Of a DNA stretch of 64,000 nt, positions 13,193-43,240 are shown one piece after another. Both the position numbers and the translations under genes were made by a program. The DNA comes from Terriglobia bacterium. GTDB taxonomy: Bacteria; Acidobacteriota; Terriglobia; Terriglobales; Acidobacteriaceae. The notes beneath the pieces were generated by a model. It did not search any database. It was not told the DNA's origin and saw nothing but the letters and a program-made list of their open reading frames with translations. Numbering within the stretch: position 1 is the stretch's first letter; every line of letters begins with the position of its first letter. The stretch spans positions 62,001 through 126,000 of the forward strand of contig JAIQFD010000004.1 of the NCBI GenBank assembly GCA_020073495.1, in the 5' to 3' direction.

Positions 13193-14188
13193 CTACAGCT
13201 TCAGGACTGCCGCGCCTCTGACCCGGCTGTGTTTCATGGCGGCAATGGCCTGGTTGGCGTCATCCAGGGGGAAGAGCTCGATCTCCGTGCGCACGGGGAC
13301 TTCAGCGGCGAGCGTGAGGAACTCGCGGGCGTCCTGGCGGGTGCTGTTGGCGACGGAGCGCAGGACGCGCTCGTGGTAAAGGTCGGCGTAATCGATTTGC
13401 GGGATTGCCGACATGGTGATGCCGGCGCAGGCTACGGTCCCGCCCTTGCGCACCGCGCGCAGCGCCAGCGGCACAATCGGTCCTGCGGGCGCGAAGACGA
13501 TGGCACAGTCGAGCTTCACCGGCGGCTGCTCTTCGGCGCTGCCCGTCCACGCCGCGCCCAACCGTTTCGCCAACTCGGCGTGTGCCGGCGTTCGCGTGAA
13601 GACGTAGCACTCGTTGCCCAGGTGCCGCGCGAATTGGAGCACGATGTGCGCCGAGGCCCCGAAACCATATAGCCCGAGCCGCTCGCCCCTTTTCGCATCG
13701 CTCAAGCGGTAGGAGCGGTATCCGATGATCCCGGCGCAGAGCAGCGGCGCAGCGTGCTCATCGGAGAACGAGGCCGGGAGCGGGTACGCGTAATCCTCGG
13801 GCGCTACCACGTATTCCGCGTAGCCGCCGTCCACGTCCCATCCCGTGAACTTGGCGCGCTCGCATAGATTCTCGTGATTCCGGCGGCAATAGCCGCACTC
13901 CCCGCAGGTCCAGTGCAGCCAGGGGATACCGACGCGTTCGCCCGCCTTGAACGTCTTCGCGCCCTGCCCCAGCGCGTCCACTACGCCTACGATCTGATGT
14001 CCAGGGATTACGGGCTGTTTGTGCAGCGGCAGGTCGCCTTCGACGATGTGCAGGTCCGTGTGACAGACGGCGCAGACTGACACACGGACGCGGACCTCCC
14101 CACGCCCAGGCGTGGGGACGGGAACGTCGCGCAGCGAGAGCGGCCCCTGCTCCGGCTCCCCCTGCCGCTCCAGCACCATTGCGCGCAT
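13193..14188 (-). CDS. Zinc-dependent alcohol dehydrogenase (MDR family, AdhP-like)
   Basis: A 331-residue NAD(P)-dependent oxidoreductase. Catalytic zinc ligands are visible in VCAVCHTDLHIVEG and PVIPGHQIVG, and the structural zinc site is CGECGYCRRNHENLC. The nucleotide-binding loop is GLYGFGASAHIVLQFA, slightly unlike the usual GxGxxG. The length is normal for the AdhP/CAD-like branch (COG1064). It appears to be a single gene. The substrate is probably a primary alcohol or aldehyde, by family only. Confidence 0.9.
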   Translation of the reverse strand: MRAMVLERQGEPEQGPLSLRDVPVPTPGRGEVRVRVSVCAVCHTDLHIVEGDLPLHKQPVIPGHQIVGVVDALGQGAKTFKAGERVGIPWLHWTCGECGYCRRNHENLCERAKFTGWDVDGGYAEYVVAPEDYAYPLPASFSDEHAAPLLCAGIIGYRSYRLSDAKRGERLGLYGFGASAHIVLQFARHLGNECYVFTRTPAHAELAKRLGAAWTGSAEEQPPVKLDCAIVFAPAGPIVPLALRAVRKGGTVACAGITMSAIPQIDYADLYHERVLRSVANSTRQDAREFLTLAAEVPVRTEIELFPLDDANQAIAAMKHSRVRGAAVLKL

Positions 14189-36269: not shown

Positions 36270-36358
36270 AAGCCGCGCACCCACCCTTTCGAGGGCGGGA
36301 GAGACAGTCTTGCATAAGCGGCTGAGCGCTAATGGCTGATCGCTGACAGCTGGAAATG

Positions 36359-36386
36359 GTCGGCCCTAGAGGACGATTTTAGAACT
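36359..36386 (+). repeat. 28-bp repeat, copy 1 (tRNA-relic-like)
   Basis: This copy is GTCGGCCCTAGAGGACGATT followed by TTAGAACT, and matches copy 2 at 37687-37714 in 27 of 28 bases. The layout resembles a decayed reverse-complement tRNA 3' end (TGGTCGG..., GGATT, AGAAC). Both copies lie beside RHS pieces and are followed by GGGCCACCCG-rich sequence. Confidence 0.6.
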
Positions 36387-36480
36387 TTCTTCGGTGCGGC
36401 AGCCTAATCCCGTCCCCAGACGAGCAAAAGCGGCTCGTCTGGGCCACCCGATTCACCTAGGCCACCCCCCCTGCTTACCT

Positions 36481-37090: not shown

Positions 37091-37474
37091 TCAGAAGCAA
37101 GGCAGCAAACGGATGACCAGATTGATTGCATTCACCAGATTCTGCGCGTAGCCCGGCTCGCTGTTGAACGGCTGCACTTCATTGCGAGGTCGAGGCTGGG
37201 TAAGTCCTCTTGCATAATCCGTAGGTGTCTGTGTATTCGCCACTCGCTGGCCGTGAATGCTGCCCGCCAGGGAGCGGCCTGAAGCTCCAATGCCGGGACG
37301 ACCCCGGTAGGTGCCAAACACCCGGCCATCCCTTGTTGTGTAACGTCCAGTGGCGCCGCCAAATTGACGTCCCGCACCAAGCCCAAAATAGTTGTTGCGG
37401 GTTCTAGCAATGTTACTTTGACCGTACCGACTCTCTAACGCCGCGTGGCGGGTGGCCCAGACGACGCCAGAATG
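37091..37474 (-). pseudogene. Orphan C-terminal fragment with glucosaminidase-like motif (RHS-CT-like)
   Basis: An open frame of 127 codons follows a TAA at 37475-37477 and has no ATG; the first possible start is a GTG at 37321. It begins ATRHAALESRYGQSNIARTRNNYFGLGAG. AALESxYGxS...NNYFG is the signature of the GH73/FlgJ-type N-acetylglucosaminidase fold, with the catalytic Glu in ALES. The rest is Arg/Gly-rich. The likely origin is the detached toxin tip of an RHS or similar protein. It could be an N-terminally truncated pseudogene or an orphan cassette waiting for recombination. Confidence 0.6.
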
Positions 37475-37499
37475 TTACACCTCTCCATGATGGGGGTGC

Positions 37500-37528
37500 C
37501 CCACCCAACGCGGTTTTCGTTGGGTGGG
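37500..37528. repeat. Perfect hairpin repeat
   Basis: CCCACCCAACG-CGGTTTT-CGTTGGGTGGG is an 11-bp stem with a 7-nt loop. It is followed by T-rich sequence on neither side, so it looks like a REP-type element rather than a terminator. Confidence 0.6.
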
Positions 37529-37575
37529 CGTGATTCTGCCTCTGCGCATCGGCGGTTGATTTCTAAAGAAATAAG

Positions 37576-37599
37576 TGGTCGGGGCGACAGGATTTGAAC
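37576..37599 (-). tRNA. tRNA 3'-end relic (T-arm and acceptor end, tRNA-Pro-like), not a functional gene
   Basis: The reverse complement of 37576-37599 reads GTTCAAATCCTGTCGCCCCG followed by ACCA. This is the T-loop, acceptor strand and CCA-like end of a tRNA resembling tRNA-Pro. No anticodon or D arm is found next to it; the adjacent bases belong to a hairpin-rich repeat. Such 3' fragments are typical remains of integration into tRNA genes. Confidence 0.55.
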
Positions 37600-37610
37600 T
37601 CGAGGCGCTT

Positions 37611-37677
37611 AGCGGGCGTGAGCGAAGCGGGAGCCCGCTGCCGAGATCCTGAGGAGCGCAGCGACGAAGGACCTCAG
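37611..37677. repeat. REP-like double hairpin
   Basis: Two inverted repeats lie next to the tRNA relic: AGCGGGC/GCCCGCT (37611-37617 with 37633-37639) and CTGAGG/CCTCAG (37649-37654 with 37672-37677). GAGCGAAGCGGGAGC-type sequence of this kind is common in repetitive extragenic elements. Confidence 0.5.
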
Positions 37678-37686
37678 AAAACAGTG

Positions 37687-37714
37687 GTCGGCCCTAGCGG
37701 ACGATTTTAGAACT
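37687..37714 (+). repeat. 28-bp repeat, copy 2
   Basis: This copy differs from copy 1 (36359-36386) by one base (GCGG for GAGG). The two copies bracket the glucosaminidase-like fragment, its exported neighbour and the RHS remnant, a span of about 1.3 kb that could have moved or been duplicated as a unit. Confidence 0.6.
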
Positions 37715-37855
37715 CTCGATTGGGCTGCAGCCTAGGCTTACCCACCCTTTGTGGCCAAAAACCGGGCCGCAAAGGATGGGGCACCCTCAGAATTGTCCTA
37801 GAAACGAGCAGGTGTGCTCGATGCGAACTGTGGGCCACCCGCCCCGGTCTCCCCG

Positions 37856-38599
37856 TCACTTGGCCACCTTGATACCATACTGCGAAAGTAGTTGGCCCTC
37901 GTCGAGTTCACCCACCACTTTCTTGCTCCGTACGTCAATCATGTATCCGAGGTACCAGTCCCTGACCCGCAAGTCTTGAATCTTCTGATCGAGGGGGGTA
38001 GCCAGGGATGTTCTCGCGTTCAGCCCTACCAATAGCTGGTCGTCCCCCACCCACTGGAGAGCCTTGACGTAGATCAAGTCGATTTCATAAGCATTAGCCA
38101 CATAGAACTTCTGTGCGCGTGTCTCGAAGTTCTTCCGGATCACGGGGGTAACATCGGTGATCGGGATACCCAAACCCTCGCCGTTCTCTCCCATGTGGAA
38201 CTGAGTCCCGAACACGAGAGCATAGGAGGCGTTAGCGTATCGGTTATCCGTCAATGCGAATGCCTCGCTATCTGACCTCCAGAGCACGGCGCAGTTCCTC
38301 TGGATGGGCCACACTTGAATGGCTCCATTGGGGAAGTCCGAAGGGTCAATCGTTACCCAAGCTCCGTACGATTCCTTCGGGCCGGTCACGGTGACTGCGA
38401 GCTTTCCGTCAGGCGACTTCACGACTGGCCGACTATCGAAGGCGTCCATGTACGTGGGCTGGATTGCGCCAGGCTCAAACAGAAACGGGCCCGCAGGCAG
38501 GAAGTCCGCGTCTGTGGGTTGGGTTCCCGGCTTCTGTGCACCAGGAGTCAGGATTGCGAAAACCAATAAGATTGCTATCAATACAGCTGGATAACGCAT
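37856..38599 (-). CDS. Exported protein of unknown function downstream of the RHS gene
   Basis: A 247-residue protein with a signal peptide (MRYPAVLIAILLVFAILTPGAQ). The mature part has beta-rich stretches such as SRPVVKSPDGKLAVTVTGPKES and AIQVWPIQRNCAVLWRSDSEAFALTDNRYAN, resembling a short beta-propeller or NHL-like repeat set. GGAGG lies just before the ATG. It starts 15 bp after the RHS stop, the standard place for an immunity gene of a polymorphic toxin. The family is not recognised and the immunity role is inferred from position. Confidence 0.7.
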   Translation of the reverse strand: MRYPAVLIAILLVFAILTPGAQKPGTQPTDADFLPAGPFLFEPGAIQPTYMDAFDSRPVVKSPDGKLAVTVTGPKESYGAWVTIDPSDFPNGAIQVWPIQRNCAVLWRSDSEAFALTDNRYANASYALVFGTQFHMGENGEGLGIPITDVTPVIRKNFETRAQKFYVANAYEIDLIYVKALQWVGDDQLLVGLNARTSLATPLDQKIQDLRVRDWYLGYMIDVRSKKVVGELDEGQLLSQYGIKVAK

Positions 38600-38614
38600 G
38601 TGCCTCCACAGTTC

Positions 38615-40951
38615 TCAGGAAATGCCCTGAGGGGGGAGTACGGGATCCGCAATTGGCCCCCCGCAAGTAATGGGAAGTGATGACGGGTACGTGACGGTTA
38701 CCTGTACGTTTCTTGACGCCGCATTAGCGGCCGCGTCGCTGGGAAACCTATAAATGTCGAAGGCGTAACGGCCGTTGTATTTGGGACCGCCAACTCGCGA
38801 TACCGGGGTGAGGATGTCCCCCAATATGTACGTGGTGGGAAGTCCTGGTGGGAGCTTCGGCGTCGGGCTAAAGCTAAACGTGATCTGTGACGCGTATGGG
38901 CCCAGCAGAGCGTTTGTCTTGCCACCGGGGAATAGGCCCAGGGCCATGGGATCAATCGCCAAGCTGCCCAGAGGAGGGGGGTAGCCAAAAGCACCCTTGC
39001 CCGTCGCTTGATGCGGCCCGACCCCGGTTGTTCTCCCGTACCTCACCGTGCAGGTTGAGGTTGTTCCGTTGTTTGCGGGATTGTTGTCCCCGCCGCTGGT
39101 TTTCTCGGGATCCTTCGGCGGCTCGGTTGGGGGTCCGCAGTAGGAGTGCATACATATGATGAACTGGAGGAATGCCAGCGGGATTCCAGCGGGCCCGCCA
39201 TCGCTGCAACCGCCGTCCTTTACAGGCTCGCCGTTGGGACAAGTTCCTGGGGCGAAGAACAGGCCCAGAGGGTCTATGAAGCTAAGAGGATTGTTGGCGA
39301 CGTAGGCGTAGCGATTGAGCGATTGCGGCGTCCCGATGTTGGCCGCGCTCAATCCCGCTGGGTCGGGGGAAATCCATCTTCCGTAGAGGGCGTACTCGCG
39401 GTAGAGGAAATCGTAGAGGCCGGCCGCGTTGCCGGGAACGGTGTCTTGGTTCTGACCGGTGAAGGATGGATCGATGGCCGTGGCGGACGGGTACGGTTCT
39501 CCGAACGGGGCGTAGGAGGCGTCGGAGTACATCGTTCTGCCCGTGGTTGAAGTGAAGCGGGCACTGCCCAGCCAATCCGGATGGCGATAGTAGGTCAGGG
39601 TCGTGCCCACGTACACTGCCTGCGCCCCTCCCGGCAGCGGCACAAACGCTTTCGACACCGTCTGCCCGTTCATCAAGGCGAATTTCTGTCCGGTTGGTGA
39701 GTAGACGATCTGGGTGGTCGCGCTCTGCTCCACCATGCGACCCAGCGCGTCGTAGGTTGCCGTGACCGAGCCGACCGTCGTGGCGTGCCCTTCCGCGTCC
39801 CACGCGTAGGTGCGGAAGGTGTCGTTCAGGGTGTTGCCATTCGCGTCGTAACTGAATGACTGCCCTCCGACCGTGGTCACCCGATTGGTGGTGGTGTTGT
39901 ACGTCGGCTGGAAAGACACGCTGCCGCTCTTGCTCAGGTTGCCGAAGGGATCGTAGCCGAAAGTCTGAGACCAAACGCTTCCGCAGGTGACGCTGCCGAC
40001 GCGCACGAGATCGTCGTAGCCATAGGTGCAGGTTTGGGTATTGGCGGAGTTGAGCTGATCGGTGATGGCGAGCTGGCCCAGCGTGCCGTTGGCATTCCAG
40101 GTCAATGCGCCGGTCACGGTCTGCGGCGTCGTCCCGATGCTGTACTGGTACTGCGACATGCGCCCGGTGTTGGAGTCGAAGGTAAAGCCGTCGGAATCGC
40201 CCGAGCCGAAGGTCAGCCCGGTCACCTGCCCGAAGACATTGTAGGACACCGGGGTGCCGCTGGGAATCGGACTGGTGCCGCTGCTGGCGGTGACCGCGTT
40301 CGCACGGCCCTCTCCGTCCACGCCATAGGTGAACGTGGGCAGCCCCAGCCCGGCCAGCGTGTACACCGCTCCGTTGGCCCAATAGCTGGCGGTGAGGTGA
40401 TAGTAGCCGCCGGAATTGGGCGTGGACTGGTAGGCGTCGGTGACTTCGCCACGAGCCGAGTAGCTGAAGACCAGGTCGGTGATCTTGTTGTTGCTCGGCC
40501 CGGTGTAGGCCTCGGCCAGCCGCCCCTTGGTGTTGGACAGGCTGAAGCCGCTGGCCGTGCTCACGTCGTACACAAAGGTCTTAGTGGGCGTGTTGCTGGC
40601 GTAGGGACCGGAGTACGTGATGCTGGTCACCCGGTGCAGCGCGTCGTAGGCGTAGCAGGTGGTGTTGCCCACGGCATCCACCCGCTTGACCAGGTCGCCG
40701 GGCTTGAATTTGGTGACAGCGGAGCCGACCTTGGTCACGCGGCCGACAATCTCATGGCCCGGAACAATCGGGTACACAGTGGGCATGAATTCGCTCCACT
40801 CATTGCGCACCGAGTGAAGATCAGAGTGGCAAATGCCGCAGAACAGGATTTCGATCTGTACGTCGTGTTCGGTTGGTTCGCGCCTCGGGATCGTGGTAAA
40901 GGAAAGCAGCGATGTCGCGCTGGCAGCGGAGTAAGCTTTGGCGTTTTGCAT
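38615..40951 (-). CDS. RHS-repeat protein with an alcohol-dehydrogenase N terminus (chimera)
   Basis: A 778-residue in-frame chimera. Residues 1 to about 88 are the start of a zinc alcohol dehydrogenase (YahK-type): [43 protein letters not shown]. The protein then changes within [26 protein letters not shown] into RHS/YD repeats that run to the RHS core ([38 protein letters not shown], about residues 525-575). The last 200 residues after DPLGL are a Pro/Gly/Ser-rich variable tail with no recognised toxin domain. The ADH part lacks everything after the catalytic zinc site, so it is inactive. No signal peptide or secretion module is present. Either a real recombination product or a local assembly error. 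Confidence 0.85.
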
Positions 40952-41542
40952 GTATTTAATTTAGATGTTTGCCGAGTCTTACGATATGCAAAACATGCCA
41001 TTGTGCATGCAAAATACGCCAGCAATCTGCGCGACGCATCAGTGGATTACTGGCGGATTACGGGCCATCCGGAAACTACCCGCCGACCGCCTTCACGGGT
41101 TCCCATCCCTCGAGAGTCTAAGCACCCGACCCGAATGACCGGCCTTCGCGCTCCTGGTGCAACACCAGGGGGCTGGCCTGCTGAGCGCACCGCAAGGGCT
41201 GTGCTTTGCAACGACTTGCGATCGCCACGTTTGATTCTTGAGCGGGACTGTAGATGGAATTGAGCTCGAAGGATCCTCAGGATTCCACAGGGCGGCGCCT
41301 CTCGGATCTCCTAAGTGCTTGATTTGACGGATCTTTCACGGGCGACCCAGGTGGTCGAGCACCTGGTCCCGAACCAGATTCCAAGACCTATTGAAATCTA
41401 TTGAAACTTGTGGAACGCAACTGGTTTTGATTGAACCTGTTGCGGGCTGCTTGTTGACCGCTGTTGAAGTCTGTTGTTTCTGGATGCTTTCACCGACACA
41501 AAATCGACTACATCGGCGGCGCATACCGTTGGTTAGTCGCCG
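40952..41542. other. Intergenic region with ATGCAAAA repeats
   Basis: In 591 bp I find no credible gene. Three copies of the octamer TTTTGCAT/ATGCAAAA occur at 40944-40951, 40986-40993 and 41007-41014; the first covers the start codon of the chimera. They may be an operator of the original ADH gene. A short hairpin CCTGGTG-CAA-CACCAGG lies at 41153-41169. Around 41390-41480 the motif TTGAA recurs several times without a clear unit. Confidence 0.4.
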
Positions 41543-43240
41543 TCAGCCAATGGAGAGGGCGGCAGCGCGCCCAGTCTGCGTCAGGTACCGCGAAACGGCA
41601 ATTTCCAGATTAAAATGCATTCCTTCACGTTGCAGCATCTGCCCCAACGGTGATCGTTGTACGATCGCCAGAACTCCGGGATTCATGCCGACCAGCCACA
41701 GTTGAACGCCATGCTGACTTTGGCTCTTCGCGATCTGTGCGAACATCTTCAGGGCGGTGTACTCCAGGTCCAGGACTCCGCTTGCGTCCACCGCGACTAC
41801 CTTTGGTTGCGCTTCCCTGATCAGCGGCTCGATCTTGTGTGCGATCTGTGCCGCATTTGCAAAGAAAATCGGGCCTTCCGGCCTCAGCAGCAAAAGCCCG
41901 GGAAAACTCTCATCCTCGGGATGTTCCGGCGATTGCGGGCGGAATACGTTGCTCCCGGGCTTGCGCCGCAGCACATACACTGGAGGATCGGCTACCTGGT
42001 AAGCCAGTGTGACCAGCGAGACGACAATGGCGACGATGATTCCCTTCAGGGTGCCGACGAGTACGACACCTGCGAACGCCACGATCGCCCAGGAGAATTC
42101 GGTCCTGCGGATCCTAAGGACGTCATGAAACTCGATCGGCTTAATAAGTCCGAAAGAATAAACGATCACCATCGCTGCCAATGCAGATTGCGGCAACATC
42201 GCGACCAGAGGTGCGAGGAACAACATGGTCACCAGTGCCATGGCCGCAGTGACCATCTCCGCCAATTGGGTGCGGGCTCCCGCGCGGAAATTGACCGCCG
42301 TCTGGGATGTCCCGCCGCCGCCCGGCATCGCACCGAGCAGCCCGCCTCCGACATTGGCGAGTCCTGTCGCAAGCAGCTCTCTGTCTGCTCGCGGCGGCGG
42401 CTCGTCCTCTCGCGCGAAGGCTCGGCCCGCCGCAAGCGTCTCCGTGAAGCTCATCAACGCGATTCCCAGTGCTCCGGGCCACAGCACGCTTACCAGTGAA
42501 AGGTCTGGCATCGCTAGCGAAGGCAGTCCTTGCGGTATGTGGCCCACCAGTTCGACACCGCGATCTCGCAGATTCAAGAAGTACACGCCGGCCGTCGCAG
42601 CAGCTGCCGCCAGCAGCGGCGCTGGTGCTTTGGGTATGAACCGCCGCATGCCCAGCAGAAACACGATCGCGGTGAGTCCAACGGCCAGGGTTGCTGATGA
42701 CGTTCTTGGAAGGTTGTGAACCGTTGAGAGGACGTTCTGAACGAATGTTCCTCTTGGGAAGTGGATGCCAAGGATTTTCGGGACTTGGTCCACCACAATA
42801 ACCAGCCCGATACCGGCTCTAAAACCAACAAGTACCGGCTCGGAGATAAAGTTTGCCACGAAACCCAGGCGCAGGAGGCAGGCCAGCCCAAGTGCCGCCC
42901 CAACCAGCAACGTCAAAGTCGCTGAGGCTCTCAACAGGGCTGCGGGGTCGCCATTGGGCACGACTTGGCCCAACTGAGCGGCGGTCAGGATAGCCAAAGT
43001 CGTAGTCGTGCTGACGCTGAGTACGCGCGAGGTCCCGAGCACCGCGTAGATGACCATCGGCACTAAGGCGGTGCAGAGCCCTACCTGCACCGGCAGCCCG
43101 GCCATCATGGCATACGCCATCGCCTTGGGAATGATGACTGCGCCAGTGGTCAGCCCCGCGACGATGTCGGCCCGCAGCCAATCCCCACGGTACGAGACAA
43201 GCCACTCTGGTAACAGACGTAATCTCCGATGCTTCGACAT
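41543..43240 (-). CDS. SulP-family inorganic anion transporter with STAS domain
   Basis: A 565-residue permease. The N-terminal part holds 10-14 membrane helices (WLRADIVAGLTTGAVIIPKAMAYAMMAGLPVQVGLCTALVPMVIYAVLGTS is the family signature). The cytoplasmic STAS domain is about residues 435-555 (FPGLLLLRPEGPIFFANAAQIAHKI...VDASGVLDLEYTALKMF). Substrates in the family include sulfate, bicarbonate and other anions; this one cannot be specified. It is the last gene of a run that begins with the sigma-54 promoter at 46736. Confidence 0.93.
   Translation of the reverse strand: MSKHRRLRLLPEWLVSYRGDWLRADIVAGLTTGAVIIPKAMAYAMMAGLPVQVGLCTALVPMVIYAVLGTSRVLSVSTTTTLAILTAAQLGQVVPNGDPAALLRASATLTLLVGAALGLACLLRLGFVANFISEPVLVGFRAGIGLVIVVDQVPKILGIHFPRGTFVQNVLSTVHNLPRTSSATLAVGLTAIVFLLGMRRFIPKAPAPLLAAAAATAGVYFLNLRDRGVELVGHIPQGLPSLAMPDLSLVSVLWPGALGIALMSFTETLAAGRAFAREDEPPPRADRELLATGLANVGGGLLGAMPGGGGTSQTAVNFRAGARTQLAEMVTAAMALVTMLFLAPLVAMLPQSALAAMVIVYSFGLIKPIEFHDVLRIRRTEFSWAIVAFAGVVLVGTLKGIIVAIVVSLVTLAYQVADPPVYVLRRKPGSNVFRPQSPEHPEDESFPGLLLLRPEGPIFFANAAQIAHKIEPLIREAQPKVVAVDASGVLDLEYTALKMFAQIAKSQSQHGVQLWLVGMNPGVLAIVQRSPLGQMLQREGMHFNLEIAVSRYLTQTGRAAALSIG

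Follow-up and report, generated by a model that had tools for sequence, protein, structure and literature searches.

An alcohol dehydrogenase start fused in frame to an Rhs remainder in a Terriglobia bacterium, with the likeness of an orphan Rhs-CT/immunity module

The open reading frame at 38615-40951 on the minus strand of the window (the whole stretch of 64,000 nucleotides analyzed here, from a Terriglobia bacterium) is a clean in-frame chimera of a zinc alcohol dehydrogenase (ADH) N terminus and an Rhs remainder. It encodes 778 amino acids and is open over all 778 codons from ATG to TGA. We think it probable, at roughly 0.7, that a recent illegitimate recombination, most simply a deletion, left an ADH start followed by an orphan Rhs-CT/immunity module, with a product that is most likely a non-catalytic, unsecreted remnant. 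The features of the locus are as follows.

40700..40951, minus strand: 5' part of a zinc-dependent ADH gene, residues 1-84 of the frame (PF08240; up to 89-90% identity to relatives)
40690..40699, minus strand: join GGCGACCTGG, fitting both parent families (71 ADH and 6 Rhs relatives compared base by base)
39260..40689, minus strand: Rhs repeats and Rhs-associated core, to the PxxxxDPxGL motif (PF05593, TIGR03696; 45-54% identity to full-length Rhs)
38615..39259, minus strand: variable C-terminal tip, candidate Rhs-CT toxin of an unnamed family, stop TGA at 38617-38615 (profile relatives elsewhere)
38603..38607, minus strand: GGAGG, Shine-Dalgarno-like, of the downstream gene (sequence)
37856..38599, minus strand: candidate immunity gene, 247 aa, whose N terminus looks signal-peptide-like by eye (elsewhere, its homologues follow directly on those of the tip)

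The chimera and its join

Residues 1 to about 85 are the N terminus of a zinc ADH and the remainder is made up of Rhs repeats, core and variable tip. The preliminary description of this DNA had proposed an ADH start fused in frame to an RHS protein, and its coordinates, its strand and three domain matches bear this out. In Pfam, ADH_N (PF08240) matches residues 28-101 with an E of 3.7e-15, a profile match that over-extends beyond the join, and RHS_repeat (PF05593) begins at residue 85. The NCBIfam model Rhs_assc_core (TIGR03696) covers residues 480-564 (E 3.1e-14).

To place the join, we compared the DNA in register with that of its relatives, 71 distinct ones for ADH and 6 for Rhs. Bases -30 to -13 nt before Lys89 are as in the ADH relatives, and from -2 nt onward the sequence is as in the Rhs relatives. 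The T at -2 has a frequency of 0.18 in ADH versus 1.00 in Rhs, and the first two bases of the AAG of Lys89 have frequencies of 0.00 (0/71 relatives) and 0.83, respectively. The AAG is Rhs only. As none of the 71 ADH relatives has its first two bases, the shared stretch is GGCGACCTGG (40699-40690), ten bases compatible with both families, and not GACCTGGTCAAG. The join had been put near 40687, in GACCTGGTCAAG coding DLVK. That coordinate was right within 12 bases and a short match does exist, but its right end lay too far and the relatives place the join at 40699-40690. GDLA is the usual ADH reading (73 of 97 matches counted, duplicate loci included), whereas the six Rhs relatives used have LV or AV and then a Lys, Arg or Glu. 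Of the ADH x Rhs relative pairs, 12.4% have identical in-register runs of at least 8 nt; sampled control registers gave none, with a longest run of 7 (up to 2000 draws). That microhomology recombination is likely, as first suggested, is supported by the position of the join at a short sequence common to both families. The relatives were also to be searched for an intact ADH gene and the same join. Intact ADH genes exist, such as the one of 352 aa at locus L025, but the same join was not seen among the matches listed (61 genomes), all of which are ADH-only or Rhs-only.

The ADH part is up to 89-90% identical to relatives and retains GICHSDLH and GHE, which we take to be the catalytic-zinc region of the enzyme. 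With zinc-dependent medium-chain ADHs, which have PF08240 and a zinc-binding Rossmann domain, the chimera shares these two motifs and the N-terminal ~85 residues, but about 75% of the enzyme is missing, including the structural-zinc lobe and the cofactor-binding domain. Only residues 1-89 of a 352-aa relative match, and the frame does not combine a catalytic with an NAD(P)-binding Rossmann domain as a zinc ADH does. The best NCBIfam match of the ADH part is NF047908 (Ahr), at 62 bits against a cut-off of 470. A distant ADH paralogue lies elsewhere in the window (13217-13897, minus strand, 25-28% identity).

Related ADH N termini 80-89% identical are found across Acidobacteria, cyanobacteria, Verrucomicrobia and Geobacter records (L039-L118), and this similarity across phyla suggests horizontal transfer of the ADH gene. 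The record CALQCC020000001.1 (L078; 241,555 bases), titled as a 'Bordetella parapertussis' MAG, has the same length and match position as G054:C1 (L029). As G054:C1 sits in the class of the window, the organism label of that record looks wrong.

The missing halves of both parents

The genome assembly has 3,697,974 bases (3.70 Mb) in 8 contigs, with a completeness of 100% and a contamination of 0.14. When the intact 352-aa ADH of genome G031 was searched against it, residues 1-89 matched at the chimera with 87% identity. The 3' three quarters of the ADH gene were not found in the assembly, where the only matches elsewhere were distant paralogues of 23-31% identity. The same holds for the 5' ~860-970 codons of the rhs gene, which were not found in the assembly either. 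The chimera aligns with five full-length Rhs frames (1552-1715 aa) from their residue 864-966 on, at 45-54% identity, so about that much N-terminal protein has been lost. In the genome of the chimera, the Rhs query from L010 had matches only at the chimera, beginning at query residue 501, and at C6:186 kb, beginning at residue 849; its residues 1-500 gave no match there. Likewise, the N-terminal 960 aa of the Rhs from L133 matched nowhere in the genome. The L133 protein is not a dead query, since in a control run by a different program from the genome search tblastn aligned it with seven other fetched Rhs loci at 28-44% identity, five of them full-length. Six full-length Rhs relatives have a signal-peptide-like start by eye. 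The chimera is without one, and has neither the export signal nor the complete repeat shell of a full-length Rhs polymorphic toxin.

Judged from these searches, both the parental ADH gene and the parental rhs gene lack their other half in the genome, a pattern fitting deletion-type illegitimate recombination. Deletion fusions by short-homology (illegitimate) recombination are known in bacteria. Like them, the chimera has an abrupt join at a short common sequence, and the lost halves were not found; unlike them, it is seen in one assembly and we infer its parental configuration. The first ~85 ADH codons are joined to the last ~690 rhs codons, and in the deletion reading a recent microhomology-type recombination would have made this fusion. 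In its simplest form it would be a deletion between two genes on one strand, ADH first and rhs downstream of it, a prior order that we infer. The frame may have been kept because GGC-GAC-CT(G/C)-G reads Gly-Asp-Leu in both genes, or by a one-in-three chance.

No shared neighborhood around the join was found when 19.8 kb around the locus were compared with six genomes. In G031 the ADH, glycogen phosphorylase and efflux genes are on three different contigs. An ADH gene and an rhs gene lie side by side in none of the fetched loci, many with flanks of 1.5 to 9 kb, except that of the window. Of the relatives drawn, G001 alone belongs to the same genus, and none of the genes flanking the join had a match in it. 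Two intergenic segments of the window, 37590-37675 and 36347-36470, match many places in G001 (25 rows for 37590-37675) and are dispersed repeats.

Neither half looks decayed. The ADH part has 0 deviations at 44 positions conserved in at least 90% of relatives, as do 13 of 64 sequences in all, chimera included (range 0-6). Against its eleven nearest relatives, dN is 0.05-0.09 and dS 0.7-1.7, which resembles the divergence between intact genes. In the Rhs part 4 of 73 conserved columns deviate, and five relatives span 2/71 to 39/108. Going by these substitution patterns the fusion would be either recent or constrained, and the data cannot separate the two. Undecayed halves would say nothing if the event was recent, and selection on the chimera would fit equally.

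The other Rhs pieces present in the genome are short as well. The RHS_repeat matches outside the chimera all lie within one 912-aa frame at C6:124 kb, and the 75%-identical Rhs piece at C6:186 kb sits in a 412-aa frame. The remnants at G000:C6:184.7-187 kb (L140) and C6:122-126 kb (L138) comprise this 412-aa frame with a signal-peptide-like partner gene, an Rhs core scrap downstream of it, and a separate core-plus-tip frame that has a Peptidase_M91 match below the curated cut-off. A stretch of 67 bases at G000:C1:698027-698093 (L141:4028-4094), 90% identical to the Rhs part of the chimera, is likely another rhs scrap; transposase-like ORFs, named by eye, lie within about 3 kb on both sides of it.

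The variable tip and its downstream gene

The Rhs core fragment (TIGR03696, residues 480-564) ends at a PxxxxDPxGL motif visible in the translation, and the last 214 residues after the motif form the tip. Four of five alignments with Rhs relatives stop at chimera residue 560-575 and one at 627, as for a variable tip. Between the stop of the tip and the start of the 247-aa gene lie 15 nt. Tip and downstream-gene families are adjacent at six places in five other genomes: L152 (twice), L168, L169, L170 and L171. In L171 the tip is spread over two frames, and L170 is close in both the tip (54%) and the partner (57%). The downstream proteins begin with a signal-peptide-like stretch by eye. Their two families align nearly full length (hhalign E 5.9e-5, probability 65%, from few sequences). 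Homologues of the downstream gene at the G041 and G044 loci have no tip match alongside, which counts against a strict pair.

Only chance-level matches to Pfam were obtained with the tip (best E 0.42), and its profile had no match in the PDB at E up to 10. In an alignment of seven members (A5), D95, D115 and Y117 are invariant, which in our own estimation is only reminiscent of a 3D-type peptidoglycan-lytic domain. The idea of a 3D-like peptidoglycan enzyme is unsupported: none of the 7 tips matched the 3D family, their only matches being at chance level (MlaA 0.09, CC 0.89), and there was no PDB match. AlphaFold single-sequence models of the tip and the downstream protein had a mean pLDDT of 37-38 and were useless.

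In its gene order and motif the tail of the chimera resembles an orphan Rhs-CT/immunity module with a candidate toxin and a candidate immunity gene. The parts of PMC3150448 on rhs-CT/rhsI modules, orphans included, describe the same organization and give the PxxxxDPxGL motif, and acidobacteria are among the hosts of polymorphic toxin systems listed in a section of PMC3482391. With the orphan rhs-CT/rhsI and cdiA-CT/cdiI modules, as far as they are outlined in those parts of PMC3150448, the locus shares a 5'-truncated Rhs fragment, a variable tip and an adjacent candidate immunity gene. It differs from the orphan rhs-CT/rhsI modules outlined there in that its ATG is borrowed in frame from an unrelated metabolic gene, and toxicity and immunity are here candidate functions assigned to genes only. 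The earlier account of the tail as RHS was incomplete, as it missed both this likeness and the loss of the other halves of both parents.

With no cofactor-binding domain and no Rhs export part, the product would be expected to be neither an enzyme nor a delivered toxin: it cannot work as a dehydrogenase and is also without the signal-peptide-like start and N-terminal region of Rhs. Such a remnant would most likely be unsecreted and functionless, and the part most likely still useful would be the candidate immunity gene, which has a ribosome-binding site of its own. A still useful immunity gene is described for orphan CDI modules.

An incoming cassette of orphan Rhs core, tip and immunity gene may instead have recombined into the ADH gene, the 3' end of which was lost secondarily. 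We consider this unlikely, though it fares best among the alternatives. Portions of PMC3150448 describe mobility for cdiA-CT/cdiI modules and rearrangement for rhs loci, and the tip/immunity family is patchy, which would suit such an arrival. Counting its own genome, the tip is found in 2 of 397 genomes of the order, with a weak homologue in G165, and the downstream gene in 3 of 397, with homologues in G041 and G044. The tip profile matches 5 of 399 genomes of the class, the own genome and four further ones. However, no ADH 3' piece lies beyond the candidate immunity gene, the only credible match in the window being the paralogue at 13.2-13.9 kb. How much Rhs core remains does not discriminate, since similar lengths are found in other truncated frames.

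Expression and how unusual the fusion is

Expression of the RHS tail from the ADH promoter, as had been put forward, is unsupported by the sequence upstream, which is unconserved and has no promoter-like match and no Shine-Dalgarno (SD)-like 4-mer. The DNA match to the closest ADH gene (G031) sets in only with the ATG (query 11550); by eye, the 60 bases before it are unlike those of eleven ADH relatives. A scan of 37400-41560 for sigma-70-like promoters found none upstream of the chimera and one site inside the gene (1.2 expected by chance). An SD-like 4-mer (GGAG, AGGA or GAGG) is absent at -22..-4 before the ADH ATG. It is present at the same place in 35 of 62 ADH relatives and in 20% of shuffles. 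The absence weighs little, because such a 4-mer is likewise missing from 6 of 10 other genes checked in the window.

To gauge how unusual the fusion is, we surveyed 67 Rhs frames of <900 aa from the own genome and relatives of the family, order and class, using Pfam on the first 220 aa. They were drawn from 98 Rhs frames, 78 of them <900 aa, after removal of 10 that run off the 5' edge of the stretch and of 1 false positive (127 aa, in the window). Only one of these 67, a non-random sample mostly from among the matches listed with those at contig ends left out, has a convincing unrelated N-terminal domain: the window's own ADH_N (8.8e-16). Three non-Rhs, non-toxin families are borderline (E <0.01) with one member each, TCO89 (0.0016), Aromatic_hydrox (0.0033) and RNHCP (0.0038). 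Leader length by BLAST was unreliable, giving 27-38 aa for the window instead of ~85 because alignments over-extend, and Pfam scanning was used instead. Five leaders from the BLAST estimate, scanned alone against Pfam, gave at best Imm32 at 0.13.

Outside the survey sample, a tip of the same family at L169:5834-6649 (G073:C50) has a phage-integrase SAM-like domain (PF14659, E 1.2e-7) fused to it in frame, and the partner gene follows. By its domain matches we regard it as a second chimera, in which the tip has lost the Rhs core and gained a foreign start. Plasmid searches matched 1402 records, but no single place in any of them covered 80% of the query; the best 8 listed are Rhs matches of 28.8-30.2%. 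For the integrase part of L169, no plasmid was matched. No description of an ADH-Rhs fusion was found in a literature search. Deletion fusions and orphan Rhs modules are both known, and their combination here, in which an orphan module carries a borrowed start, is a variant.

The fusion may also have given the orphan Rhs-CT module a translation start, with selection maintaining expression of the tail or, at the minimum, translation that runs on as far as the immunity gene. The open frame of 778 codons, the undecayed halves and the second fused tip in G073 speak for this. We nevertheless regard it as improbable: no SD-like 4-mer or promoter-like site precedes the ADH ATG, a GGAGG in front of the candidate immunity gene makes coupling unneeded, the signal-peptide-like start and the Rhs N-terminal part for delivery are lacking, and in-frame fusion to a recognizable foreign domain is rare (1/67, the window itself). 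Somewhat more doubtful still is the wider idea that orphan Rhs toxin-immunity modules in these bacteria are re-expressed, perhaps re-armed, by in-frame capture of unrelated starts (ADH here, phage integrase in G073), with translation sustaining the immunity gene. Most doubtful of all is an assembly artefact, in which the ADH and rhs parts are not joined in the chromosome: Rhs genes are repeat-rich, but the ~10 nt shared would be short for a k-mer or overlap join, the other DNA matches in the own genome (75%/427 nt, 90%/67 nt, 91%/34 nt) do not lie at the join, the locus sits in a contig of 682 kb, and a false join should have left the orphaned halves on other contigs, whereas a deletion explains their absence there.

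Read as a recent deletion, the chimera would be a clean and probably recent case of a giant polymorphic-toxin gene reduced to an orphan tip/immunity module, and of a metabolic gene lost except for a start that now heads a foreign reading frame. In annotation the frame may be called an alcohol dehydrogenase or an Rhs protein and is probably functionally neither. Should the frame be expressed, it would offer a test of whether orphan immunity genes are kept alive by start capture.
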